This document shows, one piece after another, positions 1 to 12,256 of a stretch of DNA of 12,256 nucleotides. The stretch comes from Lachnospiraceae bacterium OF09-6 (lineage in GTDB: Bacteria; Bacillota; Clostridia; Lachnospirales; Lachnospiraceae), in assembly GCA_003435055.1 (NCBI GenBank), contig QUMM01000050.1, positions 1 to 12,256 on the forward strand, given 5' to 3'. Position 1 is the first letter of the stretch, and every line of letters begins with the position of its first letter. The notes under the pieces are model-generated. The model did not search any database. It saw only the letters and a program-made list of their open reading frames with translations, and was not told the origin of the DNA. A program made the position numbers and the translations under genes.

Positions 1-20
1 CTATACCCATTCTCCTGTCA

Positions 21-96
21 TTCCATTTTCGATTTTAAAAACTATACTTGACACAAAATTCCATTTTCGATTTTAAAAACTATACTTGACACAAAA
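21..96. repeat. 38-bp direct tandem duplication in the blaI-like promoter region
   Basis: Two identical 38-bp units lie head to tail at 21-58 and 59-96, with one more matching base at 97. Each ends in TTGACACAAAA and so carries a perfect TTGACA -35 box (48-53 and 86-91). Only the second has a good -10 at the right distance, so the first is probably a passive duplicate. The absence of any difference between copies suggests a recent slippage or recombination event, or an assembly duplication. Confidence 0.9.
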
Positions 97-143
97 TGAC
101 TATTGTAGTAATATAATCATATGATTACTATTTCAGTAGTCAT
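86..143 (+). promoter_or_regulatory. Promoter and palindromic operator of the BlaI/M56 operon
   Basis: A TTGACA -35 at 86-91 is followed after 17 bp by TAATAT (109-114); TATAAT at 112-117 is an alternative with 20-bp spacing. Over the -10 sits a perfect 14-bp palindrome TAATCATATGATTA (114-127), nested in the wider dyads TAGTAAT (106-112)/ATTACTA (124-130) and ATGACTA (96-102)/TAGTCAT (137-143). BlaI/MecI proteins bind as dimers to such TA-rich dyads over their own promoter, so negative autoregulation is inferred. The exact operator half-site is not proven. Confidence 0.7.
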
Positions 144-167
144 TTCATGCATGAAGGGAGTTTTTAA

Positions 168-527
168 ATGAACGTTAAATTATTTGATTCTGAACAAAAA
201 GTAATGGAAGTATTATGGCGGGAGGGAAATCTGCATGCAGGCCAAATTGCAGAAATCCTAAAAGAAGAAATTGGCTGGAACCGGAATACCACCTACACCG
301 TGATCAAAAAGTGTATCGAAAAAGGCGCAATTGAACGACAGGAACCAAAGTTTTTCTGCAAAGCGCTGATTACCAGGGAGCAGATACAGAAAGCAGAAAC
401 CAATGAACTGATCAATAAACTTTTTGATGGTTCTAAAATGCAGTTTTTTTCTGCTTTTCTTTCAGAAGACAAACTTTCCAAAGAGGAGATCTCTGAATTA
501 AAAGAACTGGTCAACAAGCTGAAATAA
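168..527 (+). CDS. BlaI/MecI/CopY-family winged-helix repressor
   Basis: This 119-residue protein has the length and pattern of BlaI/MecI. A winged helix fills about residues 4-70: the E-x-x-VMEVLW first helix, then WNRNTTYTVIKKCIEKGAI as recognition helix and wing. A C-terminal dimerisation helix pair follows, with FFSAFLSEDKLSKEEISELK at about 93-112 matching the segment where BlaI/MecI are cut in induced staphylococci (near Phe97 here). The start is ATG with AAGGGAG seven bases upstream. It lies 22 nt before an M56 peptidase gene, the standard repressor/sensor-protease pairing. By family analogy it represses this operon and perhaps others until cleaved. There is no beta-lactamase or mecA-like gene here, so the inducer may not be a beta-lactam, and I give no gene symbol for that reason. 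Confidence 0.92.
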   Translation: MNVKLFDSEQKVMEVLWREGNLHAGQIAEILKEEIGWNRNTTYTVIKKCIEKGAIERQEPKFFCKALITREQIQKAETNELINKLFDGSKMQFFSAFLSEDKLSKEEISELKELVNKLK

Positions 528-549
528 ATCAGATGGAGGTACTATAATA

Positions 550-2220
550 ATGAGACAGTTATTATCAATGAATCTCACAGCCAGTTTCCTGATTCTGGTG
601 ATATTACTGCTTCGACACTTTTGCGGCAGAATACTGTCGAGAAGATGTTTTGTATGGCTGAGTATGATCGTGATACTTCGTCTCCTGTTTCCACTGCAGT
701 TTGACGTATTTCCGTCACAGATACCAACAGTCACAGGTATTATGAAGATGTTTTCCGAAAAAGAGTCTGATCCGGTTTCGACAGTTTCCGAACATTCTTG
801 GGCTGCAAATTCTTCCCAGAATACGGGCAAAACAATATCGAAAGGTTTGGACGGAAATTCTGTCACCGGTACAATGCCATCATTAGAAACTTTTTCGAAA
901 CAGCTGGCAGCTTTTTTCAGGTTTAAAACTCCTGGGCTGTTTCTCTTCTGGATAGGCGGTATTCTTTTCACTGCAGCAGTCTTTTCTCACAGACTGTGGA
1001 AAGAATACCGGATTCTACGTCAGGCATTGCCGCTTGATACCAGGATTGTGACTTGGAACGGCCGCAGCTTTTCACTGCCACTTTTTTACTCTGACCAGAT
1101 CACATCCCCTGTGACCTTTGGATTTTTTCATTGCAGTATTGTTTTGCCAAAATCTATGCGAAGTGAGGATACGTCCAGACTGGATCTCATTCTGCTTCAT
1201 GAAGCCATGCATATACAGCATCGGGACAACCTGCGTAAAATATTTGCTCTTTTCTGTGTCTGCATTCACTGGTTCTCTCCGCTTGTCTGGATCTGGATGA
1301 CAGTCTTTTTCCGTGATCTGGAACTTTCCTGCGATGAAGCTGTTCTGTCTTTCCTCGGAAGTCAGAACAGGGAATCTTATGCCCTTACCTTAATTACTTT
1401 TATGGAACAAAATCAAACACCGTCAATTATGAACAGCGGCTTTGGACAGACCGCCGTAAAGGAAAGGATTGTGTCTATTATGAATTACAGAAAAAAAGGA
1501 TTCTTAAGTATTACATTAAGTGCTGTTTTACTTTGTTCTTCCATAACCGTATTTGCCGGAAACAGTACAACCGACATTACTGCAAAAAAAGACTCCACCG
1601 AAGCGCAGACAAAATCATCTTCGGATTCCGACATTGCTTACGAAATGGGCGAACTGGAAATTTCAGAGCATTACTCTTCTGCCGATGAGCTGATGCATTC
1701 TCCTTACTATCCGGAATATGAGAAACTTGGGCTGACTTATGATAAAACCAGTGATTCACTGATGTACCAGGGAAAAAGTGTGGTATTTTTGGAAGACTTT
1801 ATAAATGAAACCAATGTTTTACTTTATGAAGATAAAAACTATTTTACTTTTGATGGTGAAACAGTTACTTCCGATGTGTTCATTTCTAATATATACGATT
1901 CCGACAAATATGATGAAGAAGATACGCCTGATGATGATTCTGAGCAAACACATGAAACTGAAACAGAAATTCTTACAGAAAACGCAACTCCTCTGGAGGA
2001 TGATTCCGTTGTCTTTCTTTTCACCCTGAGAGATGAAAACGGAAAACTGACTGAACTTCAGATCCCTGAAGTATCTTATGGTGATTCTGTCACGGAGGAA
2101 AACAGCTCAACCGATGAACCGGATGAAGCGACAACAGAAGATGATCTTGCATCTGCTGCTGTCATAGGCGGTGCAGATGGTCCGACCAGTATCTTTCTTG
2201 CTGGGAAATTGGGATCGTAA
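550..2220 (+). CDS. M56-family (BlaR1-like) membrane metallopeptidase with unusual sensor domain
   Basis: This 556-residue membrane protein has hydrophobic segments at about 8-23, 32-50, 126-146 and 317-337. The M56 zinc peptidase core contains HEAMH (217-221; His and Glu as zinc ligand and catalytic base), then HRDNLRK and ELSCDEAVL (258-266), the usual second ligand region. In BlaR1/MecR1 the protease acts on the cytoplasmic side and triggers inactivation of the partner repressor; here the partner would be the BlaI-like protein 22 nt upstream. The extracytoplasmic part (about 338-556) is not a penicillin-binding domain: I see no SxxK or KTG pattern. It is an acidic Ser/Thr/Asp/Glu-rich region with a segment YEKLGLTYDKTSDSLMYQGK (about 390-409). 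It ends in GGADGPTSIFLAGK, a motif otherwise typical of Na+-translocating decarboxylase beta subunits. The ligand is unknown. A GGAGG lies 10 nt before the ATG. Confidence 0.9.
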   Translation: MRQLLSMNLTASFLILVILLLRHFCGRILSRRCFVWLSMIVILRLLFPLQFDVFPSQIPTVTGIMKMFSEKESDPVSTVSEHSWAANSSQNTGKTISKGLDGNSVTGTMPSLETFSKQLAAFFRFKTPGLFLFWIGGILFTAAVFSHRLWKEYRILRQALPLDTRIVTWNGRSFSLPLFYSDQITSPVTFGFFHCSIVLPKSMRSEDTSRLDLILLHEAMHIQHRDNLRKIFALFCVCIHWFSPLVWIWMTVFFRDLELSCDEAVLSFLGSQNRESYALTLITFMEQNQTPSIMNSGFGQTAVKERIVSIMNYRKKGFLSITLSAVLLCSSITVFAGNSTTDITAKKDSTEAQTKSSSDSDIAYEMGELEISEHYSSADELMHSPYYPEYEKLGLTYDKTSDSLMYQGKSVVFLEDFINETNVLLYEDKNYFTFDGETVTSDVFISNIYDSDKYDEEDTPDDDSEQTHETETEILTENATPLEDDSVVFLFTLRDENGKLTELQIPEVSYGDSVTEENSSTDEPDEATTEDDLASAAVIGGADGPTSIFLAGKLGS

Positions 2221-2241
2221 TTCTCTTTTACCGTTGAAATT

Positions 2242-2270
2242 TTTGAGGGGCTTTACTACTGCCCCTCAAA
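2242..2270. terminator. Hairpin between convergent M56 and anti-sigma genes
   Basis: TTTGAGGGGC (2242-2251) and GCCCCTCAAA (2261-2270) form a perfect 10-bp GC-cored stem with a 9-nt loop, 22 nt after the M56 stop codon. The A/T ends of the stem supply short U runs on either strand, so it may terminate in both directions between the convergent operons. There is no long T tract outside the stem, hence moderate confidence. Nothing else recognisable lies between 2271 and 2334. Confidence 0.55.
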
Positions 2271-2334
2271 TCATATCCTGTTATAGTCCTTATGAAACAC
2301 AAGCTCATACTGTGAGATTTGTGTCATTTCCAAC

Positions 2335-3518
2335 TTATTTCACTGCTACTTCATAATATTCTGGTTCTTCTGTCACGTCTCCATTGCCATTTGTTGTTTT
2401 ATAGAAAAGTACAGACGCAACCTGATCTGGATCTATCACACGGTCAAATGCAAAGCCTGAGATATATTCATCACTGTCTTCTGAAATATATCCTTCTGTT
2501 CCAGGTCCTCCATACAGATTCATGATGGTTGTCCCATCCTTATATTTTACTCCGCTGACCATTGGTGCTTCTTCATAATAGGTAGTTACCTGCGTTTCTC
2601 CATTTTCATCTTCATATTCCTCATTTTTTCAATCCGTGGAAAATCATAAGACACACGGATAGATACCGGAGAGAGTTCCACACCGGTCACAGTTGCCCCA
2701 GAATCTCCCAACTTCTGTTCCGTTTCTGTGAATCTGGATACATCTGCACCACCAAGCGTCATATCCAGTGCCCATGTTCCATCAATATCCGGTGTATAGT
2801 CTGCTTTTGCCACAGTTCCAAGATTTTTAAATTCCACATGCAGATTCTTTCCCATAAAAAAGCCTTTTTCATCACTCTTGGCCAGTACCATATGGTATTC
2901 CAGACTGCCATCATCCATCACGTAATTTTCGATAATGGAACCATCTTCCTCTGTCTCCAGTTCTGATCCGTCAGCATGAACTGCCATTCCATTTTCATCT
3001 GATATCATTCCATTGTAGAAACTGCCTCCCCAACTGAAATCATCCTGTCCATCCACTGTAACAGATATAGTTTCAAAATCTGGCTGAACTCCCTGTTCCA
3101 CCGAATAACCGTCTATCTTAAAGGAAAGATAGGTATAGTAATTATCCGTAATGCTCTGCTGTGCAGTCACTGTCACGCCTGCATCGGTTACGGTTGCATC
3201 GGAAAATGCCGCCATTCCATTTTCCTCCATATGATTCTGCTGATCCACGGAAATACGCAGTTCTTCTTTTAGACCTTTACTCCATCCGGTATATGCTGCA
3301 TAGGCTGTTGCTGTTCCTACTGCCAGGGTTGCTGCCAGTGCAATTACCATATATCTCTTTCTGCATTTTCTTTCCGGTTTCTGGTATGTAACCATTTTGT
3401 CATTTTTCATATCGGCATCCTTTCTGATCTGTTCCAATATCTTATTTGCTTTGTCCGTTACGATTTTAGGTATTTCGATATCCTGCTGTAATGTATAGAT
3501 AGTATCATTCCTACTCAT
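2335..3518 (-). pseudogene. DUF4179-type membrane anti-sigma factor, frameshifted near the 3' end
   Basis: The frame opening at 3518 runs 310 residues. It has a cytoplasmic N-terminus (about 1-55), a basic CRKR stretch, one membrane helix (about 56-77), then an extracellular domain with repeated beta-rich segments such as DATVTDAGVTVTAQQSITD, as in DUF4179 proteins that partner ECF sigma factors. At an A6 run (T6 at 2624-2629) the frame shifts, replacing the natural C-terminus with MRNMKMKMEKRR and a stop at 2586. Adding one A restores a continuous reading frame, ...PRIEKNEEYEDENGETQ..., down to a TAA at 2335-2337, for a total of about 394 residues. The start ATG overlaps the sigma-factor stop (ATGA), so the two are translationally coupled. 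The truncated form keeps the membrane anchor and sigma-binding end and may still work. A sequence error, slippage rescue or true truncation are all possible. Confidence 0.8.
2624..2629 (-). other. A6 frameshift site in the anti-sigma gene
   Basis: On the coding strand the context is TGAAAAAATG. With A7 the frame is continuous into the downstream 3' segment; with A6, as written, it terminates 44 nt later. The downstream frame keeps coherent codons (ending YYEVAVK), showing the shift is recent or artefactual. Confidence 0.85.
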
Positions 3519-4030
3519 ATGTTTGCCCTCCTCTTCCGCAAATCGTAGATATCCGTCAGGCTGTCACGCCCTCTTGCCAGCCGGCTTTTTACGGTTCCCT
3601 CTGATATTTCCAGTATCTGACTAATTTCGCTGACCGTAAATCCTTCCACATAATGAAGCATCATCACCAGCCGGTATTTTTCTGAAATGGAATCTAAAGT
3701 CTCTTTCCATTCAATATTTTCATATGCTATTTCCTGATATCCCTGCTCTGGAAACTCTGCATCAACAGTGATATTCCTGTTTTTTCGAATCAACTCATAA
3801 CATTTATTAATCAATATCCTTGTCATCCAGGTTCGAAAATAACTGTTATATTTTAGACTCCCCAACCGCTCCCAACATATCAGTATGGTCTCTGAAATAG
3901 CATCTGCCACATCAGCATCCTGGGATAAAATAGATCTGGCTGTTTTGTACATGTTCTGCATCTGTGACTGTATCAGATCCGTAAAGGCATCCGGATCTCC
4001 TTTTTTTGCTTTACTTACTAAATCATCCAC
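3515..4030 (-). CDS. ECF-type sigma-70 family RNA polymerase sigma factor
   Basis: This 171-residue two-domain sigma factor has region 2 at about 12-83 (ADVADAISETILICWERL and YFRTWMTRILINKCYELIRK, covering -10 recognition and core binding). Region 4 lies at about 110-160 with the helix-turn-helix FTVSEISQILEISEGTVKSRL for -35 recognition. The short linker and absence of regions 1 and 3 are typical of ECF factors. The start is GTG at 4028-4030, preceded directly by an in-frame TAA and by AAAGGGG seven bases upstream, so no longer N-terminus is possible. Its stop overlaps the start of the membrane anti-sigma gene by four bases. The pair should respond to an envelope signal and usually drives its own promoter. 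An A7 run early in the gene (KAKKGD) is intact. Confidence 0.93.
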   Translation of the reverse strand: MDDLVSKAKKGDPDAFTDLIQSQMQNMYKTARSILSQDADVADAISETILICWERLGSLKYNSYFRTWMTRILINKCYELIRKNRNITVDAEFPEQGYQEIAYENIEWKETLDSISEKYRLVMMLHYVEGFTVSEISQILEISEGTVKSRLARGRDSLTDIYDLRKRRANI

Positions 4031-4052
4031 TTAACTGCCCCTTTCTTTTTGT

Positions 4053-4081
4053 CTGTACGTACAGGAACATTTTTCATGTTC
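4053..4081 (-). promoter_or_regulatory. Candidate autoregulated ECF promoter with two adjacent palindromes
   Basis: Upstream of the sigma gene two dyads abut: CTGTACGTACAG (4053-4064, a perfect 12-bp palindrome) and GAACAT (4065-4070)/ATGTTC (4076-4081). On the minus strand, AGAACA and CGTA can be read about 17 bp apart, resembling ECF promoters of the GAAC...CGT class. The promoter reading is inference; the palindromes are directly visible and could instead be a repressor operator. Confidence 0.4.
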
Positions 4082-4224
4082 TATCTATTAGATGCATGAG
4101 AATGCAATTTTGTTCCATTTATTTTAAATAATTTGGAAAAAAGTTGAATGAGTTGGAAATTTAGAACCGAAATAGCGTATTCAGACTGAAGAGATAAAAA
4201 GAAAAGAAGTTTTAAAAGAAAAAT

Positions 4225-4249
4225 GGTGCTGGGCATAATCCCCAACACC
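4225..4249 (-). terminator. Rho-independent terminator of the propeller operon
   Basis: Read on the minus strand, GGTGTTGGG and CCCAGCACC pair (one G-T wobble) around a short loop and are followed by ATTTTTCTTTT. It lies about 50 nt after the stop of the secreted propeller gene, giving a standard intrinsic terminator for that transcript. From 4082 to 4224 I see only AT-rich sequence with no other feature. Confidence 0.75.
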
Positions 4250-4252
4250 AAG

Positions 4253-4268
4253 TTTGTCTACAGTCTGG
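4253..4268 (-). repeat. 16-bp motif shared with the 11.9-kb terminator region
   Basis: On the minus strand this reads CCAGACTGTAGACAAA, identical to 11898-11913 on the plus strand. In both places it sits downstream of a stop codon and just before an intrinsic terminator hairpin. It may be a dispersed intergenic element, a conserved pre-terminator motif, or an end sequence of the IS1182-type element near 11.9 kb. Confidence 0.8.
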
Positions 4269-4295
4269 GGGCTGTCAATGACAGCCCTTTTTTTT
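4269..4295 (+). terminator. Plus-strand hairpin with T8 tail, facing the propeller gene
   Basis: GGGCTGTC (4269-4276) and GACAGCCC (4280-4287) form an 8-bp stem with a 3-nt loop followed by T8, a textbook terminator for rightward transcription. No rightward gene is upstream, so it would stop antisense transcription entering the 3' end of the propeller gene, or act as one arm of a two-hairpin bidirectional terminator. Confidence 0.7.
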
Positions 4296-4296
4296 A

Positions 4297-6345
4297 TTAT
4301 GCTCCAAGAATTGCGGATATCTTTATTTCTTTTTCTGTTTCACTTAGATCCATGGTTCCACCATCTTCTACTGTCATATACACTTCATATAATTCATTTT
4401 CAGACAGTGTCTCTGGTATCTCACCATTTTCTTTCTGAATATGCCACAGTTCAGCAGCAACTTCCTGTAAGGTTCCATTTGCATCATATGCATACAGCTT
4501 CATTTCTTCTGCGCTGCCTGAAATTCCTTTCATTCGCAGAACTACTGTCGTATTCGGATGTACATTTTCAATGGTTACGGTATTGAGCCATCCTGCCACA
4601 CTGCCCTGTCCGCCGTCTGCTTCAAACTGTTCCTGCGACAGTACGTTGCGTATTGCCTGATCCAGATCTACTTTACGATATGGCATATCCGGAAGATAGA
4701 CGAATCGATCCTGCAATCTCAGCAATTCCAGATAGCCGGTCGGACAGTAAAGAGCATTTCCACTATTTCCGGCATACATACCGATTGCCATATTGTTATA
4801 TCCCGGCTTGTTTGCAACATCCATGGAAAATACAGTTTCCCCTGTTTCAAAATCCAGCATGATATACTGCCACATTCCGGTTTCCAGATTCTGAACATAG
4901 CCATAAACATAGCCTGTTGCAGTAGAAAGCTTCATCATAGAAGTATCTGACAAATCACTTCTGCACCAAATACTCTTCATTTCATACCCATCCTCTGTTT
5001 TTATCGTATCTACACGTTCCACACCTGGCATGATCATTTTATTTCCCTGTCTTAACCAGTTCACATCATAGATATTCTCATAGCTCTGCACGGAAGAGTC
5101 ATTATCTTCCTTTGCCAGATTGGCACTTCCGGCGCCAAACCAGTTACATACAATCGTACTTACCGTACCTTCTCCATTGTCATATACAATGGCTGAATTT
5201 TCTACTGACACCTGTACATCTTCCGGCAGTTCGTCAATTACCGGCATACTTGCCACCACTTCTCCAGTCTTCATATCCAGTGCCATCAGACTTACTGTTT
5301 TCTGATTATCCGTAAACATCACAAGATCTCTGGTAATGGATGGTGAGCATCCGCTGCCCCATGCCAGACCGCCGCCTGTTGTTTCATCTCCCTCATGGCT
5401 GTCTTTTGCTCCCACGCTTTCATATGGTGTCTCCCACACCTTCTTCACGCCATTATCCGCCTGAAGCAGATAACAGTTTAAATTGGTCAAAATCACTGCA
5501 CCGTCTTTGGATGCTGCGATTCCATTTTCAGCGCCTTCCCCAGGAGCCAGTTCATATACGAACACGCTGTCCGACAGATCCTTCTCTTCTCCATTTAAAA
5601 TCGCATCAATTGCAGAGCGGGAAATATATCCGAAGGTTCCCTGCTGCTTTCTGTCCGGATAAATTCTGAAGCCTCCCGTTGCAAACCAGAGATTTCCATC
5701 ATAATCAAACACAACTGACAACAGATTCTGATCCAGTGTCTTTCCAAGTGCTTTTTCTGCTGCTGCCTTGATATCAATATCTAATACTTTTTCAAATTCC
5801 GGAAGTACATTTCCTTCTTCATCGGTTGCCTTCAGCATTAGCACATGATTGTTGCTGGTCGGGCACACCAGGCGATTGCTCTCATCCACAAATGAATAAG
5901 AACTCTGTATCAGATAACCGCCTCCATCCTGCTGCTTCGGTGAAAAGTATCCTTCGGTCTGTGTCTCTTCTGCGTTAATATCCCGGATGGCAAGCCCTCC
6001 AAGAAACGGAACAACTGCATGTCCATATGTATCAAAAAAGACAGCCGGTGATGCATTCGGATTTACCTTCTCATATGAAACATTGATTTCTGAATAAATA
6101 TCAACCGGCAAAACTGCATCCGTAGTATCTGAATTGTAGCAGTCATGATGAATATTTGAGTCACTGTTCGCCATATAAGGATTCTCATCAATCGCTTTCG
6201 GACTGAGTGACTTAATCGGCACCTGCACTTCTGCTGTACTGTTTTCCTTCGCTTCATCTTCTGCATGCACCATACCTGCAGTACCGTTTGATGCCATTGT
6301 CAGCATAAGTGCCGTAAGTGCAAGCATTGCCATTCTCTTCTTCAT
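4297..6345 (-). CDS. Secreted beta-propeller-like (PQQ-like repeat) protein of unknown function
   Basis: This 682-residue protein has a clear signal peptide: KKR, a hydrophobic core at about 6-24, and a VHA site near residue 28, then an acidic linker. After NPYMANSDSNIHHDCYNSD come recurring short beta-blade-like segments with alternating aromatic and Gly/Asp turns (GNLWFATGGFRIYPD, GAVILTNLNCYLLQADNG, MALDMKTGEVVASMPV, YIMLDFETGETVFSMDV), typical of PQQ/WD-like propellers. A C-terminal part (about 560-682) looks like a separate beta-sandwich. I see no lipobox, LPXTG motif or membrane anchor, so release or non-covalent surface retention is likely. The start has GGGAGG at good spacing and lies 33 nt after a receiver-like gene, probably in one transcript. 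The function is not recognised; binding, scaffold or sensory roles are more plausible than catalysis because no active-site signature stands out. Confidence 0.75.
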   Translation of the reverse strand: MKKRMAMLALTALMLTMASNGTAGMVHAEDEAKENSTAEVQVPIKSLSPKAIDENPYMANSDSNIHHDCYNSDTTDAVLPVDIYSEINVSYEKVNPNASPAVFFDTYGHAVVPFLGGLAIRDINAEETQTEGYFSPKQQDGGGYLIQSSYSFVDESNRLVCPTSNNHVLMLKATDEEGNVLPEFEKVLDIDIKAAAEKALGKTLDQNLLSVVFDYDGNLWFATGGFRIYPDRKQQGTFGYISRSAIDAILNGEEKDLSDSVFVYELAPGEGAENGIAASKDGAVILTNLNCYLLQADNGVKKVWETPYESVGAKDSHEGDETTGGGLAWGSGCSPSITRDLVMFTDNQKTVSLMALDMKTGEVVASMPVIDELPEDVQVSVENSAIVYDNGEGTVSTIVCNWFGAGSANLAKEDNDSSVQSYENIYDVNWLRQGNKMIMPGVERVDTIKTEDGYEMKSIWCRSDLSDTSMMKLSTATGYVYGYVQNLETGMWQYIMLDFETGETVFSMDVANKPGYNNMAIGMYAGNSGNALYCPTGYLELLRLQDRFVYLPDMPYRKVDLDQAIRNVLSQEQFEADGGQGSVAGWLNTVTIENVHPNTTVVLRMKGISGSAEEMKLYAYDANGTLQEVAAELWHIQKENGEIPETLSENELYEVYMTVEDGGTMDLSETEKEIKISAILGA

Positions 6346-6378
6346 GATGTTTTCCTCCCAATTTTCCCAATATTTTTA

Positions 6379-6753
6379 TTATACTTTTCCTATACGTTCC
6401 AGCCAGGCCTTAAGCCCTTCTTGTATTTTTTCATGTTCCACCGGTTTCATAAAAAAATATTCCACACGTAATCTGAAAGCATGAAGCGAAAAATCCAAAT
6501 CACTGCACCAGATAATTCCACATCTGGGATATAATGAACGAAGATGTTCTGCTGCATTTAACCCACCCACTCCCGGCAATGAGAGAAATACCATAGATGG
6601 AACTCTTCTCTGTATCTGCTTAAAAAAGACTTCCTGATTTTGATAAATCTCAATCAGCGGAACGATTCCTTTTTCCATGCAGTAATCTGATATATATTTT
6701 GCATAATCATGACCATCCTGATCTCTGTCAGTTAATACAGACATACAATACAC
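6379..6753 (-). CDS. Stand-alone receiver-like protein lacking the phosphoacceptor Asp
   Basis: This 124-residue protein has the length and fold pattern of a single response-regulator receiver domain. An acidic loop follows strand 1 (SVLTDRDQDG, 5-14). MVFLSLPGVGGLNAAEHLR (54-72) matches the usual FLD-I-x-M-x-G-x-x-G segment but has Ser58 where the phosphorylated Asp belongs. IIWCSD (80-85) follows strand 4, and YFFMKPV (99-105) keeps the conserved Lys-Pro after strand 5. No DNA-binding or output domain follows. It is most similar in style to LytTR-type receivers (DFSLHAFRLRVEYFF). The start is GTG, with AAGGAGG seven bases upstream. It is inferred to be the first gene of the operon with the secreted propeller protein. 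It probably cannot be phosphorylated and may act by protein contact with the neighbouring kinase or regulator. Confidence 0.75.
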   Translation of the reverse strand: MYCMSVLTDRDQDGHDYAKYISDYCMEKGIVPLIEIYQNQEVFFKQIQRRVPSMVFLSLPGVGGLNAAEHLRSLYPRCGIIWCSDLDFSLHAFRLRVEYFFMKPVEHEKIQEGLKAWLERIGKV

Positions 6754-6794
6754 AGAACCTCCTCCTTTCTATTTTCACTCCATTTGTTGTCCCC

Positions 6795-6822
6795 ATTATA
6801 AAATAAACAGATTCTTTTTCAA
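6795..6822 (-). promoter_or_regulatory. Promoter of the pseudo-receiver/propeller operon
   Basis: On the minus strand TTGAAA (6817-6822) is separated by 16 bp from TATAAT (6795-6800), a good sigma-A type promoter about 40 nt upstream of the GTG start. Its -35 lies 6 bp from a pair of direct repeats, fitting regulated activation. Confidence 0.75.
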
Positions 6823-6828
6823 TTGTTC

Positions 6829-6858
6829 TGGCACGAATCACCAAATATTGGCACGAAT
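6829..6858. promoter_or_regulatory. TGGCACGAAT direct repeats: candidate LytTR regulator binding site
   Basis: TGGCACGAAT occurs exactly at 6829-6838 and 6849-6858, start to start 20 bp, about two helical turns. LytTR proteins (AgrA, ComE, PlnC type) bind paired direct repeats about 21 bp apart, typically just upstream of the -35. Here the pair ends 6 bp from the -35 of the minus-strand promoter and lies about 90 nt before the LytTR gene itself, so the adjacent regulator is the obvious candidate binder. The repeat sequence is not the classic ACAGTT form, so specificity is inferred from position. Confidence 0.65.
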
Positions 6859-6893
6859 TGTAAAGCCATATCATAGCCCATGACATCTTTTTG

Positions 6894-6902
6894 TGTTATA
6901 CT
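6894..6902 (+). promoter_or_regulatory. Extended -10 promoter element for the LytTR/GHKL operon
   Basis: TG-T-TATACT at 6894-6902 is an extended -10 about 40 nt upstream of the regulator start. No good -35 lies 17 bp upstream, which suggests modest or assisted expression. The direct repeats at 6829-6858 lie 36 bp upstream of it and could also influence this promoter. Confidence 0.45.
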
Positions 6903-6944
6903 TTCTATATGAATGAAATCAGCTTTGTATGAGAGGTATGTACA

Positions 6945-7667
6945 ATGAGAATTGCAATTGTTGACGATATTGCCGAAGAACGTATTCTGCTTCGCAGCAG
7001 ACTTGAATGTCAGCTCTCCCGGCGTGGAATCCATTCAGATTTCACTGAATTTGAAAATGGTGAAGATTTTTTGCTTGCATCCAAAGAACGCCCTTTTACC
7101 GTGTTGTTTCTGGATATTTACATGAATGGTGCGAACGGCATAGAAATAGCAAGAGAATTACGCAAATCAGACACTTCCTGTCTGCTTATTTTTACTACTA
7201 CATCCACGGATCATGCTCTTGAGGGGTTTCAGGTACGCGCCATGCATTATCTTGTCAAACCGTATCATGAAAATGAGATTTCTGCTTTAACAGACGAAAT
7301 TCTTTCCCGCATTCCGAATTCCGGGAAATATATAGACGTTAAAATAAACGGAAGTAATGTAAAAGTCCCATTTCAAAGTATGATTTATGCCGAGCATTTT
7401 TCTCATATGATGCATATTTATACGACAAATAAAAAAGAACTGATTACACGTCAGTCTTTTGAATCTTTTCTGTCTGCTTTGAAGATGGATACCCGGTTTT
7501 ATCAGTGCAACCGCGGGATTGTTATTAATCTGGATCATGCTCTTGATTTCGACGGCACGGTTTTTACCCTGGATAACGGAAATCAGATTCCGGTTAGTCG
7601 TAAGTTGAGTAAACATGCCCGACAGACTTTTATGGATTACCTTTTTCAAAGGAGGACTTCATCATAA
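6945..7667 (+). CDS. LytTR-family response regulator (AgrA type)
   Basis: This 240-residue protein has a receiver domain at about 1-120 with the acidic pair Asp7-Asp8, phosphoacceptor Asp57 in VLFLDIYMNG, the Thr region IFTTTS (82-87) and Lys105 in LVKPY. A LytTR DNA-binding domain at about 125-235 includes IYAEHFSHMMHIYTTNKKELITRQSF, FYQCNRGIVINLDHA and the terminal IPVSRKLSKHARQTF. All phosphotransfer residues are present, unlike the divergent receiver-like neighbour. The start is ATG behind a weak GAGAGG. Its stop overlaps the kinase start by one base (TAATG), so the two are co-translated. It should activate target promoters when phosphorylated by the kinase. The best local target is the divergent operon with paired repeats at 6829-6858. 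Confidence 0.95.
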   Translation: MRIAIVDDIAEERILLRSRLECQLSRRGIHSDFTEFENGEDFLLASKERPFTVLFLDIYMNGANGIEIARELRKSDTSCLLIFTTTSTDHALEGFQVRAMHYLVKPYHENEISALTDEILSRIPNSGKYIDVKINGSNVKVPFQSMIYAEHFSHMMHIYTTNKKELITRQSFESFLSALKMDTRFYQCNRGIVINLDHALDFDGTVFTLDNGNQIPVSRKLSKHARQTFMDYLFQRRTSS

Positions 7668-9001
7668 TGCTTTTTTTCAGACCTGTTTTGGAACTTACTG
7701 TTCTCCTTCCCGGCATGCTGCTTGCTTATCTTCCGGTAAAAACTTATCTGAAGCTGACACCGTTGAAGCTGACTTGCTGGATGCTCCCTTTACTCACAGG
7801 CATCTGTATTTCCGGCGGTTTATTGTGTTATTTTCTTCAAATTTCCACAAAGTTTGTTCTGCCATTTATGCTTCTTGTGGCACTGCTTCTTTACCACAAT
7901 ACTCTGCGTATTTCCCTGTGGAAATCCGGAAGTATTTTTTTTGCAGTCTGCGCTGTTTTTGCATGTATCAACAGTTTTTCCAGGGCAATTGATGCCATTA
8001 TTACTGCAGATCAGACCATTTCCAGTCAAACTCTGTGGTTTCATACCAAAACCTGTATTTTATACAATCTGATTTGTCTGTCTTTTGTTTTGGCTGCATG
8101 GTTTCCTGCTTCTCACACTGCTAAAAAACTGGTGGAAGACGAAAACTTTGCACAAACCTGGTATATTTTCTGGATTCTGCCACTGCTGTTTATTGGACTG
8201 AATCTGTTTATAGCACCAAAATATCGCAATACATTGTATACGGGACGTATTTTAAAAATATATATAGTCATGAGCCTGGTTCTTTTTCTGATTCTCATCC
8301 TCTTTTATGCCATGTTTCTTTTAATGGCAAACAGTTTGAACCGGAATGTCAGACTCCAACAGGAGAATCATCTTCTCACTTTACAGCAGACAAGATACGA
8401 AAATCTCTGTAACGCCATTGAAGAAGCAAGACAGGCCAGACATGATATCCGGCATCAATATCTTCAACTTTCTTCACTTGCGGAACAAGGAGATCTTGAG
8501 AAAATAAAAGACTATATTTCCAGTGCTGTCAGTAAAATCCCCAGTCAGGATCTGCACTTTTGCGAAAATCAGGCTACTGACAGCATCGTAGGCTATTATT
8601 CTGCCCTTGCCGCACGAGATCAGATTCCTTTTCTTTCCAGACTGGATCTGCCGGCACAGATGTCTATTGACGAAATGGATCTCTGTATCATTCTTTCCAA
8701 TCTTCTGGAAAATGCTATCGAGGCCAGCCTGAAGACTGAACCTGCAAGACGGGCTATCTCCGTAACTGCTTACCTGCATCATAATCATCTTCTCCTTCTT
8801 CATGTAGAAAATGCGTATGACACTCAAATTTCAGAAAAGAATCATATCTTTCAGTCATCCAAGAGACGCGGAAATGGTGTCGGTGTTCAATCTGTGCGCC
8901 ATATTGCCCAAAAAAATGGCGGAGACAGTGATTTTTCTTACGAGAATGGGATATTCACCGCAAACATCATGCTCCGCCTTCAACTAGCAGAAATGCAATG
9001 A
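7667..9001 (+). CDS. GHKL-domain membrane sensor histidine kinase (AgrC-like)
   Basis: This 444-residue protein has about six or seven hydrophobic segments over residues 8-220, then a coiled-coil linker (about 222-255). The phosphoacceptor region is ARQARHDIRHQY, with His259 the likely site. A GHKL ATPase domain follows: N-box IILSNLLENAIEAS (341-354, Asn349) and G-box RGNGVGVQSVRHIAQKNGG (401-419). This is the arrangement of AgrC/peptide-sensing kinases partnered with LytTR regulators. The ligand is unknown: no AgrB protease or AgrD propeptide gene is present in the window. AAAGGAGG inside the end of the regulator gene gives strong translation. A T8 run and an A7 run inside it keep frame. 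Its 3' end is convergent with the ATPase pseudogene. Confidence 0.93.
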   Translation: MLFFRPVLELTVLLPGMLLAYLPVKTYLKLTPLKLTCWMLPLLTGICISGGLLCYFLQISTKFVLPFMLLVALLLYHNTLRISLWKSGSIFFAVCAVFACINSFSRAIDAIITADQTISSQTLWFHTKTCILYNLICLSFVLAAWFPASHTAKKLVEDENFAQTWYIFWILPLLFIGLNLFIAPKYRNTLYTGRILKIYIVMSLVLFLILILFYAMFLLMANSLNRNVRLQQENHLLTLQQTRYENLCNAIEEARQARHDIRHQYLQLSSLAEQGDLEKIKDYISSAVSKIPSQDLHFCENQATDSIVGYYSALAARDQIPFLSRLDLPAQMSIDEMDLCIILSNLLENAIEASLKTEPARRAISVTAYLHHNHLLLLHVENAYDTQISEKNHIFQSSKRRGNGVGVQSVRHIAQKNGGDSDFSYENGIFTANIMLRLQLAEMQ

Positions 9002-9158
9002 TTTCTATCGCAGAACTGTTCACAATTCCGTTATACATATAATTGAAGAAACCTGTTTCTCCATCTCCACTGAATAACGTAACAAAATCATGACGCCCTG
9101 TTATCATTTTTTATTTATTCAGAATAATATCCTCTCTTTTATCGAAACAGTCATATTA

Positions 9159-9204
9159 AAATAGGGTTAGTAAAACTTGATTCTATGATTTACTAACCCT
9201 ATTT
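9159..9204. terminator. Perfect 16-bp inverted repeat between convergent genes; probable bidirectional terminator
   Basis: AAATAGGGTTAGTAAA (9159-9174) and TTTACTAACCCTATTT (9189-9204) are exact complements around a 14-nt loop. They lie between the kinase and the minus-strand ATPase pseudogene. The A/T ends give U-rich 3' arms on both strands. A small transposon-derived repeat is an alternative. In the rest of 9002-9244 I see only a short AGAAAC/GTTTCT dyad (9048-9061) and AT-rich sequence. Confidence 0.6.
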
Positions 9205-9244
9205 CGCAACTATTGTTATGGCAAAAGAAAAAACAGACATTGTC

Positions 9245-11101
9245 CTAAAGTAATTCTTCATCTACTCTTCTGGCTGATTTCACTGCCACATCCTTCCCGG
9301 CAAATGCTATCCCCAGTTTATAGATATGTTCTTCTGCAATCCCTGCTGCCAGCAGATCTGCATCATAACGTTTTTCTTCTATTTGACGCAGGGCATTTTC
9401 TGCTGCTTTTTCAAGTGTTCCATCTTCTTTTTCGTCGCATACTTTAAATTCTATGATAAATGCATCTTCTCCTTCACTCAGTGGATACATGGCAATGTCA
9501 TACCGACCACGTCCGCTCTCCCGGTTAGATACAATACGGTATCTGTCTCGAAGAGATACGATCAGTCCCAATACCAGACCATGATAAAAATTCTCCGGAG
9601 CACGTTCTGAATGTCTTCTTCCCACATCAAAATAACTCATAGACGTATAGGATATATCCATCAGAATATCTGTCAGTTCTTCTGTTCTGTGTGACAATAA
9701 TGCCTCTACAAAATCATAATAGACCGCATTCCCATTTTCAAACATTGCCAGTATTTCATACCGGAACATCTCCATGACTTCCTGATTTGTGACAGATACA
9801 TCGCACTCTGTAATCCCCTGCATTTTTTCACATTATCTGCTTTGATATATCCGACAGCGAGAAGCAACGACCAAAGACTGTTCTCATCACCGTCCAGATA
9901 CTGGAATGTAATATGTTCATTTATTTTTTTGTGCACTATGGCGCCTTTCATAAGCTGCTCGATTTCATACTTACTTCGAGCCGGATACTTACGAATAATA
10001 TCGCCTATCAGCTTGTTACTGCTGGTGTTGGTCCAATAAGACAGCAGTTCTCCCTGCCGCAGATAATTACAAATGGACCATGGATTATACATATCTTTCC
10101 GCTTTCCAAAAATGAAGCCATCATACATGGCTTTCACATCCTGCAGACTATCCATATTCTGGCACTTTAATGCATCTGACACCAGTAAATCCAAAACAGT
10201 CACTGTATGGCTCACAGGTTACTGTGTCCACCTCGATATTATTCAGATCAGAAAATAAAGAATTTTTAGTTACCCTCGTTACTCCCGTAATGATTGCCCT
10301 GCTGTAATAAGGATTCTCTTTTAATGCGCGATGAAATAACTGACGGCATGTTCCGATCATCTCATTCCAGTATCCATCCGTATATGCTTCCAGTAGAGGT
10401 GTATCATATTCATCAATTAAAATAATGGGCTTACAGTTATAATGTCTGTAAAGAAGATAACATAATCTTGATATAGCTTTCTCCACTTTTTCCTCTGCAC
10501 CATTCCATAGAGCTTTACAAAAAAAACTATATTCATTTCTGTCATCCTCTCCCAGATACTCACTGCAACGCAGATAATCATGTGCTTCATAAAGCATAAA
10601 CAGACTGTCCATCATACCGCGCAAAGCCTGCCTGTAATCATTCCCCTTACAGCTTCCAAAGCTGACTGAGATCACCGGAATCTTGCCAAACCATTCTCTG
10701 CTTTTATCATCTCGCCAGACTTTAAACTTTTCAAAATGTTCTGGATGATCTGAAAATTTCGGATCCAGAAAATTCTCAACTGTACTGAGCAGTGTTGTCT
10801 TGCCAAAACGTCTTGGTCTGGTAATCAGGGTTACCTTTGCTTCGCTCTGCAGCCATTCTGTAATAAAATGTGTCTTATCCACATAAAACTGCCTGCCACA
10901 TGCGAAATCCTGAAAGTCCTGATAGCCACACCCTACCTTTTCCGCCAGATAAGGATTATCCTTCAGGATCTCCTGCCGCCCATTTCTATAAGCAAGCAAA
11001 TGTTTCTTTTCTTTCGATCCTTGCTTTCTTTCCTCAAATCTAATAATTCTTACTAAAGAAATTCTTCTATCAGCTTTTTCCCTGTATGCCTTGGCCTTCA
11101 C
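9245..11101 (-). pseudogene. AAA-ATPase-like/PD-(D/E)XK nuclease-family protein, broken by two frameshifts
   Basis: Three frames together encode one protein of the AAA-ATPase_like plus PDDEXK_9 type. First segment (10148-11101): YVDKTHFITEW, a Walker A variant LITRPRRFGKTTLLS, Walker B PIILIDEYDTPLLEAY and ITGVTRVTKNSLFSDLNN. At 10180-10186 the frame moves (FGFT then one stray base before VSDALK); the usual family sequence has a few extra acidic residues here, so a small deletion is likely. The second segment (VSDALK... down to ...ADNVKK) includes VKAMYDGFIFGKRKDMYNPWSICNYL. At the A6 run 9823-9828 one missing A throws the frame. The third segment (MQGITE... to ...DEELL) carries the nuclease-like core GRYDIAMYPL...AFIIEFK, with Asp and Glu-x-Lys in place. 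Family function is unsettled. The breaks argue for a decayed copy, though artefact is possible at the A6 site. The start is uncertain (GTG 11099-11101 lacks a ribosome site). Confidence 0.85.
9823..9828 (-). other. A6 frameshift site in the ATPase/nuclease gene
   Basis: The coding strand reads TGAAAAAATG, the same ten bases as at the anti-sigma frameshift. With A7 the reading continues V-K-K-M-Q-G-I-T-E-C into the nuclease domain; with A6 it drifts to a stop at 9706. Confidence 0.85.
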
Positions 11102-11148
11102 AAAGAAATTCTTCTATCAGCTTTTTCCCTGTATGCCTTGGCCTTCAC
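11055..11148. repeat. 47-bp tandem duplication over the start of the ATPase gene
   Basis: Units at 11055-11101 and 11102-11148 are identical. Each holds the same GTG-initiated codons (coding MKAKAYREKADRRIS). Because 47 is not a multiple of three, the upstream copy ends in a TGA that overlaps the downstream GTG (GTGA). The duplication separates the gene from an excellent ribosome site at 11168-11179 (AGGAGGGAGGAG, minus strand) with ATG at 11159-11161, whose frame now closes after 14 codons. Confidence 0.9.
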
Positions 11149-11319
11149 AGCTCTTCTGCATTCTTCGCTCCTCCCTCCTGCCGGTAATTGATCTGTGTAT
11201 TTTTCATTTTAGTCGCATTTCGTTTTTCAGTCAATCTCTTTTTGTTTATATAATATTTCCTTTTATTTTTAGTTCTCATAAGATTTATTCCATAAAAATA
11301 ATTCTTCTGGTAATTTTTG

Positions 11320-11328
11320 TGCTATACT
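11320..11328 (+). promoter_or_regulatory. Extended -10 promoter element of the THEP1-like gene
   Basis: TGC-TATACT (11320-11328) is an extended -10 about 37 nt upstream of the ATG at 11365; no strong -35 is visible. Between the duplication (ends 11148) and this site the sequence is AT-rich, with only the minus-strand ribosome site at 11168-11179. Confidence 0.5.
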
Positions 11329-11364
11329 GTTTTTGTTTCTAATATTCAAACAGGAGATGTTTTT

Positions 11365-11892
11365 ATGCATACACTGATTATCAGTCCCCGTGACTGCCTG
11401 AAACATGACTTTATCCGCCGTATTACAGATGCCCTTGGCCGCCCTGTCTATGGCTATGAGACTCAAAGAGAACCGGAAATAAAGATTTCCTCACTGGGGG
11501 ATCCAATCTATATCCATCCATTTGGCGGGAAACATCATTTTTCTGAGGATAACCTGGTTGGCTACTGTATTAACCACAAACCTCACACAGTTCCTGGTGT
11601 GTTTAACCGCTATGCCCCGCAGCTTCTTCTGCCGGTTCCAGAAGTCAGTATTCTGGCATTTGATGAGATCGGTTTTATGGAATCTCAGGAAGAAGATTTC
11701 TGTAACGCCATCCGCACCAGACTGGATGGTGACATTCCTGTTATTGCTACTATGAAAGACAAACAGATTCCTTTTCTGATGGAACTGCGCAGTCATCCCA
11801 AATGCCGTTGCTTCTTCCTTGAAAAAGACAATCAGGATAATCTTTTTCAGGAGATCATGGATTATATGAAAAATGATGCCTTCAAAGACTGA
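11365..11892 (+). CDS. THEP1-like NTPase-fold protein with a degenerate P-loop
   Basis: This 175-residue protein has ILAFDEIGFMESQEEDFCNAI at about 97-116, closely matching the Walker B region of THEP1-type nucleoside-triphosphatases (DEIGxME...F). IPVIATMKDKQIPFLMELRSHPKCRCFFL follows, as in the family C-terminus. At the N-terminus, where GPxGxGKT is expected, it reads HTLIISPRDCLKHDFIRRI: only the lysine-like position survives, so ATP/GTP hydrolysis is doubtful. The middle region (GDPIYIHPFGGK, VPGVFNRYAPQLL) is consistent with the family layout. The chosen start is ATG at 11365 with CAGGAGA nine bases upstream. A TTG 16 codons earlier is rejected because the promoter -10 lies inside that stretch. 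Substrate and partners are unknown; it is flanked by a pseudogene and an IS relic and may stand alone. Confidence 0.6.
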   Translation: MHTLIISPRDCLKHDFIRRITDALGRPVYGYETQREPEIKISSLGDPIYIHPFGGKHHFSEDNLVGYCINHKPHTVPGVFNRYAPQLLLPVPEVSILAFDEIGFMESQEEDFCNAIRTRLDGDIPVIATMKDKQIPFLMELRSHPKCRCFFLEKDNQDNLFQEIMDYMKNDAFKD

Positions 11893-11897
11893 AGGCA

Positions 11898-11913
11898 CCA
11901 GACTGTAGACAAA
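11898..11913 (+). repeat. Second copy of the 16-bp CCAGACTGTAGACAAA motif
   Basis: It lies 5 nt after the THEP1-like stop and directly before a terminator stem, identical to the minus-strand copy at 4253-4268. It could mark the left end of the IS1182-type element, whose boundary I cannot define. Confidence 0.8.
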
Positions 11914-11914
11914 G

Positions 11915-11934
11915 CCCTGCTTTTGCAGGGTTTT
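11915..11934 (+). terminator. Intrinsic terminator after the THEP1-like gene
   Basis: CCCTGC-TTTT-GCAGGG followed by TTTT forms a tight 6-bp GC-rich stem with a 4-nt loop, 22 nt after the stop codon. The tail is short but the structure is typical. Confidence 0.8.
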
Positions 11935-11946
11935 GCTATTGTTGGA

Positions 11947-11991
11947 ACCGCTTTTCTGATATAATAAATATCAGAAGGGCGGTGTTTTTTT
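11947..11991 (+). promoter_or_regulatory. Leader hairpin with T tract and embedded promoter before the transposase
   Basis: ACCGC (11947-11951) plus TTCTGATAT (11954-11962) pair with ATATCAGAA (11968-11976) plus GCGGT (11979-11983), followed by a T7 run ending just before the transposase ATG at 11992. TATAAT (11960-11965) lies inside the stem and loop, with TTGTTG 15 bp upstream. A full-length readthrough RNA would fold into a terminator, while a transcript from the inner promoter lacks the left arm. That would shield the element from outside transcription, as in other insertion sequences. Confidence 0.55.
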
Positions 11992-12256
11992 ATGATGACC
12001 AAAAACGCAGATAAAAAAGAGAACAAATGATGATGTTTTCCATGGATGACATGGTACCTCAAAACCATATGCTGCGATTAATTGATAGGGCAATCGATTG
12101 GAATTTTATTTATGATCTGGTTGAAGAAAAATACTGTCCGGATAACGGGATGGTTTCGAAAGGGTGAACATAAACACGTTTTTGCATATGCAGTAGAAAC
12201 TGCTTGTGATAAACATGGCTGGATCCTTGGATATACAGTACATCCTGGTAATGAGC
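11992..12256 (+). pseudogene. IS1182-family transposase remnant: frameshift, internal deletion, cut by window end
   Basis: The N-terminus MTKNADKK shifts at the A6 run 12013-12018; one more A would give KKREQMMMFSMDD. From 12027 the frame reads MMMFSMDDMVPQNHMLRLID, then DWNFIYDLVEEKYCPDNG, the conserved start of IS1182-type transposases. At about 12147-12150 it jumps to GWFRKGEHKHVFAYAVETAC (another frame), which in intact relatives lies well inside the DDE catalytic part, on the order of 150 residues further on from memory. The junction sits in a short GGATxxCGGGATGG sequence, suggesting deletion between short repeats. The remainder GWILGYTVHPGNE runs off the window end. No functional transposase can be made from this copy. 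Confidence 0.85.
12013..12018 (+). other. A6 frameshift site in the IS1182 transposase
   Basis: GAT-A6-GAGAACAAATG stops at 12028-12030 as written; GAT-A7-GAGAACAAATG reads D-K-K-R-E-Q-M, matching the family. This is the third A7-to-A6 type lesion in the window. Confidence 0.8.

Follow-up and report, generated by a model that had tools for sequence, protein, structure and literature searches.

In the genome of Lachnospiraceae bacterium OF09-6, two genes encoding a LytTR response regulator and an AgrC-like GHKL sensor kinase stand divergent from a gene for a free-standing receiver homologue, which is followed by a gene for a large, predicted exported protein. The question raised by this locus is whether these genes form one system and, if so, what a receiver that appears to be phosphorylation-dead does in it. 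The window, i.e., the whole stretch of DNA analyzed in this work, comprises 12,256 nt (GenBank assembly GCA_003435055.1, contig QUMM01000050.1, positions 1-12,256 of the forward strand). The comparative analysis revealed that the kinase and regulator genes, together with the divergent pseudo-receiver and exported-protein genes, constitute a real, conserved cassette. The connecting element between the two gene sets is, as far as the sequence indicates, a LytTR-type operator, at which binding of the regulator and activation are predicted. The features concerned (lengths in amino acids, aa) are as follows:

4224-4250 (-): terminator-like hairpin with a T run, 46 bp past the stop codon of the propeller gene
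4297-6345 (-): gene of a predicted exported protein of 682 aa, with a predicted 8-bladed beta-propeller (residues ~77-542) and then a C-terminal beta-rich part
6379-6753 (-): gene of the free-standing pseudo-receiver, 124 aa, GTG start, with Phe56 at the phospho-acceptor site and without the first residue of the Asp pair
6795-6822 (-): predicted promoter of the pseudo-receiver/propeller operon, TTGAAA-16-TATAAT, from a promoter-like scan
6829-6858 (-): putative LytTR-type operator, two repeats 20 bp apart from start to start, recognized by the sequence repeat and its conserved geometry
6894-6902 (+): TGTTATACT, resembling an extended -10 element and assigned to the regulator/kinase operon, recognized in the sequence
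6945-7667 (+): gene of the LytTR response regulator, 240 aa, with an intact receiver (Pfam profile and residue alignment)
7667-9001 (+): gene of the AgrC-like GHKL sensor kinase, 444 aa, with several predicted transmembrane segments and H259

The pseudo-receiver gene and the gene of the 682-aa protein lie on the same strand (-) and are separated by 33 bp; their two-gene transcript likely ends at the hairpin.

Conservation of the gene set and its putative operator

A scan of species genomes with the pseudo-receiver alignment indicated 14 loci, in Blautia (3), Roseburia, Lachnospiraceae GAM79, Faecalibacterium (3), Flavonifractor (2), [Ruminococcus] faecis, and three metagenome-assembled genomes. 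These, the loci found later and the window itself gave a set of 22 full-length pseudo-receivers, which includes several close relatives and two loci sharing one genome (L018 and L019), and from which broken or partial pseudo-receivers (L004/L020, L014/L024, and L053/L132) were left out. The LytTR gene is divergent from the pseudo-receiver gene in 21 of the 22 loci. The exception is L002, which is truncated by a contig end; a separate contig with the LytTR and kinase genes ends in the same operator sequence. An intact kinase gene follows the LytTR gene in 19/22 loci, i.e., all except L018, L091, and L002 (where it lies on the other contig); in L091 (genome G325), the match to the module kinase at 7838-8083 stops after ~84 residues, and the regulator, operator, and outputs are retained. 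The gene placed after the pseudo-receiver encodes a predicted exported protein in all 22 loci, namely the propeller (17 loci), a giant surface protein of at least 2370 aa (L013, L087, L088, and L089), or a ricin/PI-PLC protein (L008); the assignments for L008 and L013 were checked by a domain scan.

Within 64 genomes of the genus Blautia, the propeller was found in nine, and a LytTR orthologue (E-value <1e-120) was present in the same nine. The two genes are neighbours in eight of them, and in the remaining one (G002) they are separated by a contig break, at which the ends overlap. The pseudo-receiver precedes the propeller in eight of the nine genomes (in G338 both are broken), the ninth being G334. 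In this sample, the homologues are thus not routinely found away from LytTR/GHKL genes, which agrees with the original prediction, an earlier reading of this sequence that had proposed a module of four genes, with envelope sensing as its conjectured role and the propeller as a conjectured effector or co-sensor. The conserved gene order and the shared operator support a module with a pseudo-receiver and a predicted exported protein as its output, but the fixed set of four proved too narrow, as other outputs occur besides the propeller and the pseudo-receiver may be lost.

The operator was absent from that earlier reading. In the region between the divergent genes, TGGCACGAAT occurs twice as perfect 10-mers of the + strand (6829-6838 and 6849-6858), with a 10-bp gap and a start-to-start distance of 20 bp; in the direction of the pseudo-receiver/propeller operon the half-site reads ATTCGTGCCA. 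The repeats end 6 bp upstream of the -35 element of the TTGAAA-16-TATAAT site, which scores highest (11/12) among the promoter-like sites of the region examined, and its -35 and -10 are present in the intergenic regions of relatives, too. This arrangement corresponds to the paired direct repeats of LytTR targets, the canonical site being described, in a study of another LytTR protein, as a pair of 9-bp repeats separated by 10-13 bp, located mostly upstream of the -35 and activating (PMC11347149).

The geometry was tested in 25 related LytTR/divergent-operon intergenic regions, the window's own and 24 from relatives. A 9-bp repeat (at least 8/9 positions) at a spacing of exactly 20 bp was found in 20 of the 25, and any other spacing between 12 and 31 in at most four. 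With the repeat anchored on the -35-like TTG, the observed score was matched by at most 4 of 200 single-base shuffles in 23/25 regions, the misses being L008 (31/200) and L014 (10/200). In distant loci the half-site drifts (TTCGGGACA in L088, CATCTTGTG in L093, and CCGCTTGCG in L095) and the spacing is constant.

The pattern of operator and -35 (at most one mismatch) was present in 12 of the 14 module genomes, as opposed to 0/14 in the reversed control. Eight of the 12 carry a single site, and three Blautia genomes and R. faecis have 2-4 sites each; all 13 sites in these four genomes were inspected except G014:C9 (one mismatch), and the two G002 sites, which lie where contig ends overlap, probably represent a single site. 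Across 299 genomes of the family, the one-mismatch search matched 16 genomes and its reversed control 12, and these matches, being at the control level, were dropped in favour of perfect ones only. Four genomes had perfect matches: G006 and G014 carry the module, and in G281 and G276 another LytTR gene lies behind the repeat (cut off in G276). In L033 and L038, repeats with this half-site and this spacing lie upstream of a different LytTR gene, which is followed by a GHKL-type kinase gene in L033 and is cut off in L038; these repeats point to autoregulation of that other LytTR gene.

As for the proteins encoded on the + strand, both domains of the regulator scored above the curated cut-offs (Response_reg 56.6 bits against 30.2, LytTR 42.2 bits against 22.6), which qualifies it as a LytTR response regulator. 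Its Asp7, Asp8, Asp57, and Lys105 are all present and invariant across 12 aligned sequences, the window's included. The kinase matches PF14501 with 70.2 bits and has H259 and the NLLENA and GNGVG motifs. The intact regulator and kinase on one strand, as originally described, were therefore confirmed by profiles, alignment, and motifs.

The free-standing pseudo-receiver

The product of 6379-6753 is a single-domain protein matching PF00072 with 25.1 bits, under the cut-off of 30.2. It had been described as a single-domain, phosphorylation-dead receiver with Ser58 in place of the phosphorylated Asp. Ser58 was ruled out as the replaced phospho-acceptor: ordinary receivers carry the Asp four residues ahead of the anchoring proline, here Pro60, and the phmmer alignment likewise sets Phe56 against Asp. 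The other parts of the description hold, as the site is occupied by F, V, L, or I in 22/22 full-length pseudo-receivers. Relative to the LytTR receiver, the loop that follows beta3 is shortened by two residues, the first Asp of the Asp pair is missing in 20/20 sequences, the second is retained in 9/20, and the conserved Lys in 6/20 (the window's protein being among the retaining ones in both cases). It is mainly because the Asp site is lost that the protein may be called phosphorylation-dead. Pseudo-receivers (PsR) are defined as receiver homologues missing at least one of five key residues, and the protein is one of them. It has no DNA-binding output domain of the CmrT kind, since it ends after the receiver (119-140 aa across the 22 loci).

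Mean pairwise identity among 13 representative pseudo-receivers is very uneven: 26% in alpha1, 30% in beta3, 35% in alpha5, and 57% in beta5, and as much as 79% in alpha3, 84% in alpha4, and 90% in the loop between beta4 and alpha4. For the LytTR receivers encoded at these loci, the values are 47% in alpha1, 55% in alpha3, 87% in alpha4, and 88% in beta5. Judging by these values, the surface kept in the pseudo-receivers is alpha3-beta4-alpha4. Such a pattern favours a partner other than the kinase, likely the regulator.

In the genome G334, the pseudo-receiver was not found genome-wide, the best match sitting in a frame of 263 aa, as would be expected of an ordinary regulator. The kinase, regulator, operator, and propeller are retained there, with the operator directly ahead of the propeller, and such a loss fits a modulator rather than an essential part.

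Weak pseudo-receiver matches (E-value ≤0.001) occur in 47 of 295 genomes of the order, six of them below 1e-43; L093, L094, and L095 were inspected. In L094, a degenerate pseudo-receiver lies ahead of a secreted-protein gene, and there was no LytTR match within the 18 kb of this locus.

Outputs, probable movement, and surroundings of the cassette

The protein encoded at 4297-6345 has a Sec-type N-terminus, judged by eye. A first structural model (12 sequences, predicted local distance difference test (pLDDT) score of 49) was replaced by one built with 38 sequences, of modest mean pLDDT (60), in which residues ~77-542 are predicted to form the propeller. Consequently, of the exported, propeller-like protein of 682 residues described originally, the size, the strand, and the Sec-type N-terminus stand, and the fold is seen only through this model; the gene itself lies outside the interval which that description covered. 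In the Pfam scan, no propeller family reached the cut-off, including the two-component regulator propeller (PF07494, Reg_prop, 14.3 bits against 20.4), a sequence search of solved structures found no propeller relative, and no family name was seen in the domain and profile scans. The top Foldseek rows for the model were cytochrome cd1 and thiocyanate dehydrogenase, read as fold likeness only, not function. In 398 genomes drawn from the phylum, the search for distant relatives returned the centre genome alone (1/398). In public sequence data the propeller is abundant (all 7949 of the 7949 scored candidates had E-values ≤0.001), and the pairs compared between genera have 70-88% identity.

The outputs behind the operator are swappable, as deduced from the extra operators, which precede GAF-GGDEF genes (L016 and L021, with a remnant of the pseudo-receiver end), an alpha/beta hydrolase gene (L017), a lone propeller gene (L022), and a gene of a ricin/PI-PLC protein (L023); the domain scan covered the outputs of L017, L021, and L023. 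Several cases count against a fixed module of four genes: the propeller of L022, which stands alone yet behind the same operator; the genome G370, where LytTR, kinase, and operator are accompanied by a different 572-aa gene and no propeller; L018 and L091, with an absent and a shortened kinase, respectively; and G338, with its broken pseudo-receiver and propeller. In R. faecis, the regulator, kinase, and outputs are located at three separate places of the genome (L022, L023, and L024), each with the operator, and the assembly contains frame errors. The frameshifts of L014 and L022-L024 were not read as biology; they are likely assembly errors, because rpoB is also broken there and in the Roseburia assembly.

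Between GAM79 (Lachnospiraceae) and Flavonifractor, RpoB has 62-64% identity, and the propeller, LytTR, kinase, and pseudo-receiver have 86%, 85%, 79%, and 59%, respectively. Between GAM79 and Blautia, the RpoB value is 83%, and those of the four proteins are 70%, 57%, 58%, and 48%. From these values it seems likely that the module was transferred between orders as a unit. No mobile carrier was found in the plasmid and phage searches, the plasmid search with the propeller giving no match. A pseudo-receiver with 50% identity occurs at 1251-1607 (-) of MT839367.1, an unannotated 4.3-kb record from human faeces named Bacteriophage sp.; this single record was not accepted as evidence of a phage gene.

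Elsewhere in the window, a BlaI/BlaR1-like pair is encoded at 168-2220 (+). The terminal 24-residue stretch (531-554) of its M56 protein matches part of the profile of an oxaloacetate decarboxylase beta subunit (E-value 5.6e-4, under the cut-off). The region 2335-4030 (-) encodes an extracytoplasmic function (ECF) sigma factor and then a DUF4179 protein, whose C-terminal part seemingly continues in another frame (2335-2562). An AAA-ATPase_like gene (PF09820) at 9245-11101 (-) is split over three overlapping frames (10148-11101, 9706-10215, and 9245-9823), being either decayed or affected by sequencing errors, and an NTPase_1 family protein is encoded close to the window edge (11365-11892 (+)).

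Proposed mechanism and related systems

We tentatively favour a scheme, to which we give a little less than an even chance, in which the regulator activates the divergent operon, the pseudo-receiver brakes the regulator, and the propeller is the surface output. The kinase would feed the LytTR regulator, which would bind the two repeats 20 bp apart and activate the operon from just upstream of its promoter. The pseudo-receiver, as the first product, would bind the receiver of the regulator with the conserved side formed by alpha3 to alpha4 and thereby curb any additional activation. Since it brings no DNA-binding part to a two-repeat site, we infer that its effect would be to lower activation. 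The second product, the predicted exported propeller protein, would likely act at the cell surface. With still more reserve, the locus may be viewed as a member of a class of cassettes travelling among gut Clostridia, in which a kinase and a LytTR regulator are joined by a free dead receiver acting as an anti-activator through alpha3-beta4-alpha4, so that a feedback switch drives swapped outputs. If true, these outputs would comprise propeller, giant adhesin-like, lectin/PI-PLC, cyclic-di-GMP, and hydrolase genes.

Several points weigh against the braking scheme. The kept surface differs from the face through which receivers commonly dimerize (alpha4-beta5-alpha5), and the partner may be other than the regulator: in a 2025 review, the example of alpha3-beta4-alpha4 use is FrzS, which binds a non-receiver partner, and no ordinary receiver is given as known to use this surface (PMC12632262). 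Heterodimers of such a kind can also stimulate. Moreover, L018 has no kinase beside its LytTR gene and the kinase of L091 is cut short, the 25 intergenic regions come from related loci and do not count as independent events, the assembly of G334 is a draft, and the confidence of the propeller model is modest.

LytTR/GHKL pairs are common in these bacteria, and other such pairs lie near the module in L002/L016 and L011, so that the pair could be an ordinary one beside unrelated genes. This is contradicted by the same order across genera and orders, the occurrence in the same 9/64 genomes, and the conserved shared operator, and we regard it as extremely improbable. Receivers dock on kinases through alpha1 and the beta5-alpha5 loop. 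The titration or tuning of the kinase by the pseudo-receiver, suggested in the original prediction, is in keeping with a receiver homologue adjoining a kinase, and kinase competitors have been hypothesized (PMC12632262). A competitor should, however, keep alpha1, which is the least conserved element of the pseudo-receiver, far below the alpha3-alpha4 region, with alpha5 also poorly conserved; this option is therefore disfavoured, and we consider it rather improbable.

The same conserved surface and operon position would also suit a pseudo-receiver that helps, pairing with the receiver of the regulator and holding its active form as a positive feedback or memory. Stimulation within heterodimers is named as possible for CmrT/CmrR in the review (PMC12632262), and, according to another report, pull-downs yielded CmrR-CmrT heterodimers, which two-hybrid assays did not show (PMC12548384). 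Against such a role, the pseudo-receiver is lost in G334 with the rest retained, only its remnant is left behind operators that still precede GGDEF genes, and a mixed dimer would offer one DNA-binding domain to a two-repeat site; we hold it to be unlikely. Similarly doubtful is the possibility that the pseudo-receiver is itself the output, its amount being set by the two-component system and its action exerted outside of it as a scaffold or adaptor. The strongly conserved surface, which according to the review FrzS uses for SgmX (PMC12632262), and the first position before the gene of a predicted exported protein in 22/22 cases speak for it. On the other hand, in the loci read it is regularly accompanied by LytTR, by the output gene, and in most cases by the kinase, and no other constant neighbour was noticed, the flanks not having been systematically compared.

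The components of the cassette are of known kinds, and the literature search, limited to titles and openings of abstracts and mostly without subscription papers, gave no match for a module of a LytTR pair with a free pseudo-receiver. The nearest logic is that of CmrRST of Clostridioides difficile, in which a kinase and a normal regulator are accompanied by a pseudo-receiver protein whose expression is raised by the regulator (PMC12548384). CmrT is, however, a complete regulator of the OmpR family, has Glu in place of the Asp, and is encoded in one operon with the others (PMC12548384), whereas the pseudo-receiver described here is without a DNA-binding domain, has a hydrophobic residue at this site, and is encoded in a divergent operon with a predicted exported protein. 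AgrC/AgrA-type systems share the LytTR regulator with a receiver, the PF14501 kinase, and the paired direct repeats upstream of the -35 (PMC11347149). In Agr peptide quorum sensing, genes of an AgrB peptidase and an AgrD peptide adjoin that of the kinase; here, the scan of 10 window proteins showed no AgrB-like domain (no search was aimed at a short AgrD-like peptide), and the output operon opens with a free pseudo-receiver. LytTR regulatory systems (LRS) also have a LytTR protein and direct repeats just upstream of the -35, but combine that protein with a membrane inhibitor (PMC6193735); here, the regulator has a receiver, and instead of an inhibitor there is a PF14501 kinase, recognizable by H259 and the N and G boxes. 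FrzS resembles the pseudo-receiver in being without the Asp site and in using the surface conserved here (PMC12632262), but it is a larger motility protein, while the domain described in this work stands alone in a LytTR-linked operon. The BamB/YxaL 8-bladed propellers differ from the 682-aa protein, which has 11-13% identity to them in the structure-match rows shown, an extra C-terminal part, and no Pfam propeller family at the cut-off.

The 2025 review describes the switching of pseudo-receivers between their on and off states as a mystery (PMC12632262). The loci gathered here constitute a natural series, in which the same pseudo-receiver and regulator recur across several genera of gut bacteria, the operator being common to them, the partner genes swapped, and the pseudo-receiver lost in G334, and which makes the role of the pseudo-receiver directly testable. 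The operator motif allows the likely targets of the regulator to be read from sequence, and a surface function common to the propellers of Blautia, Roseburia, and Faecalibacterium awaits discovery.

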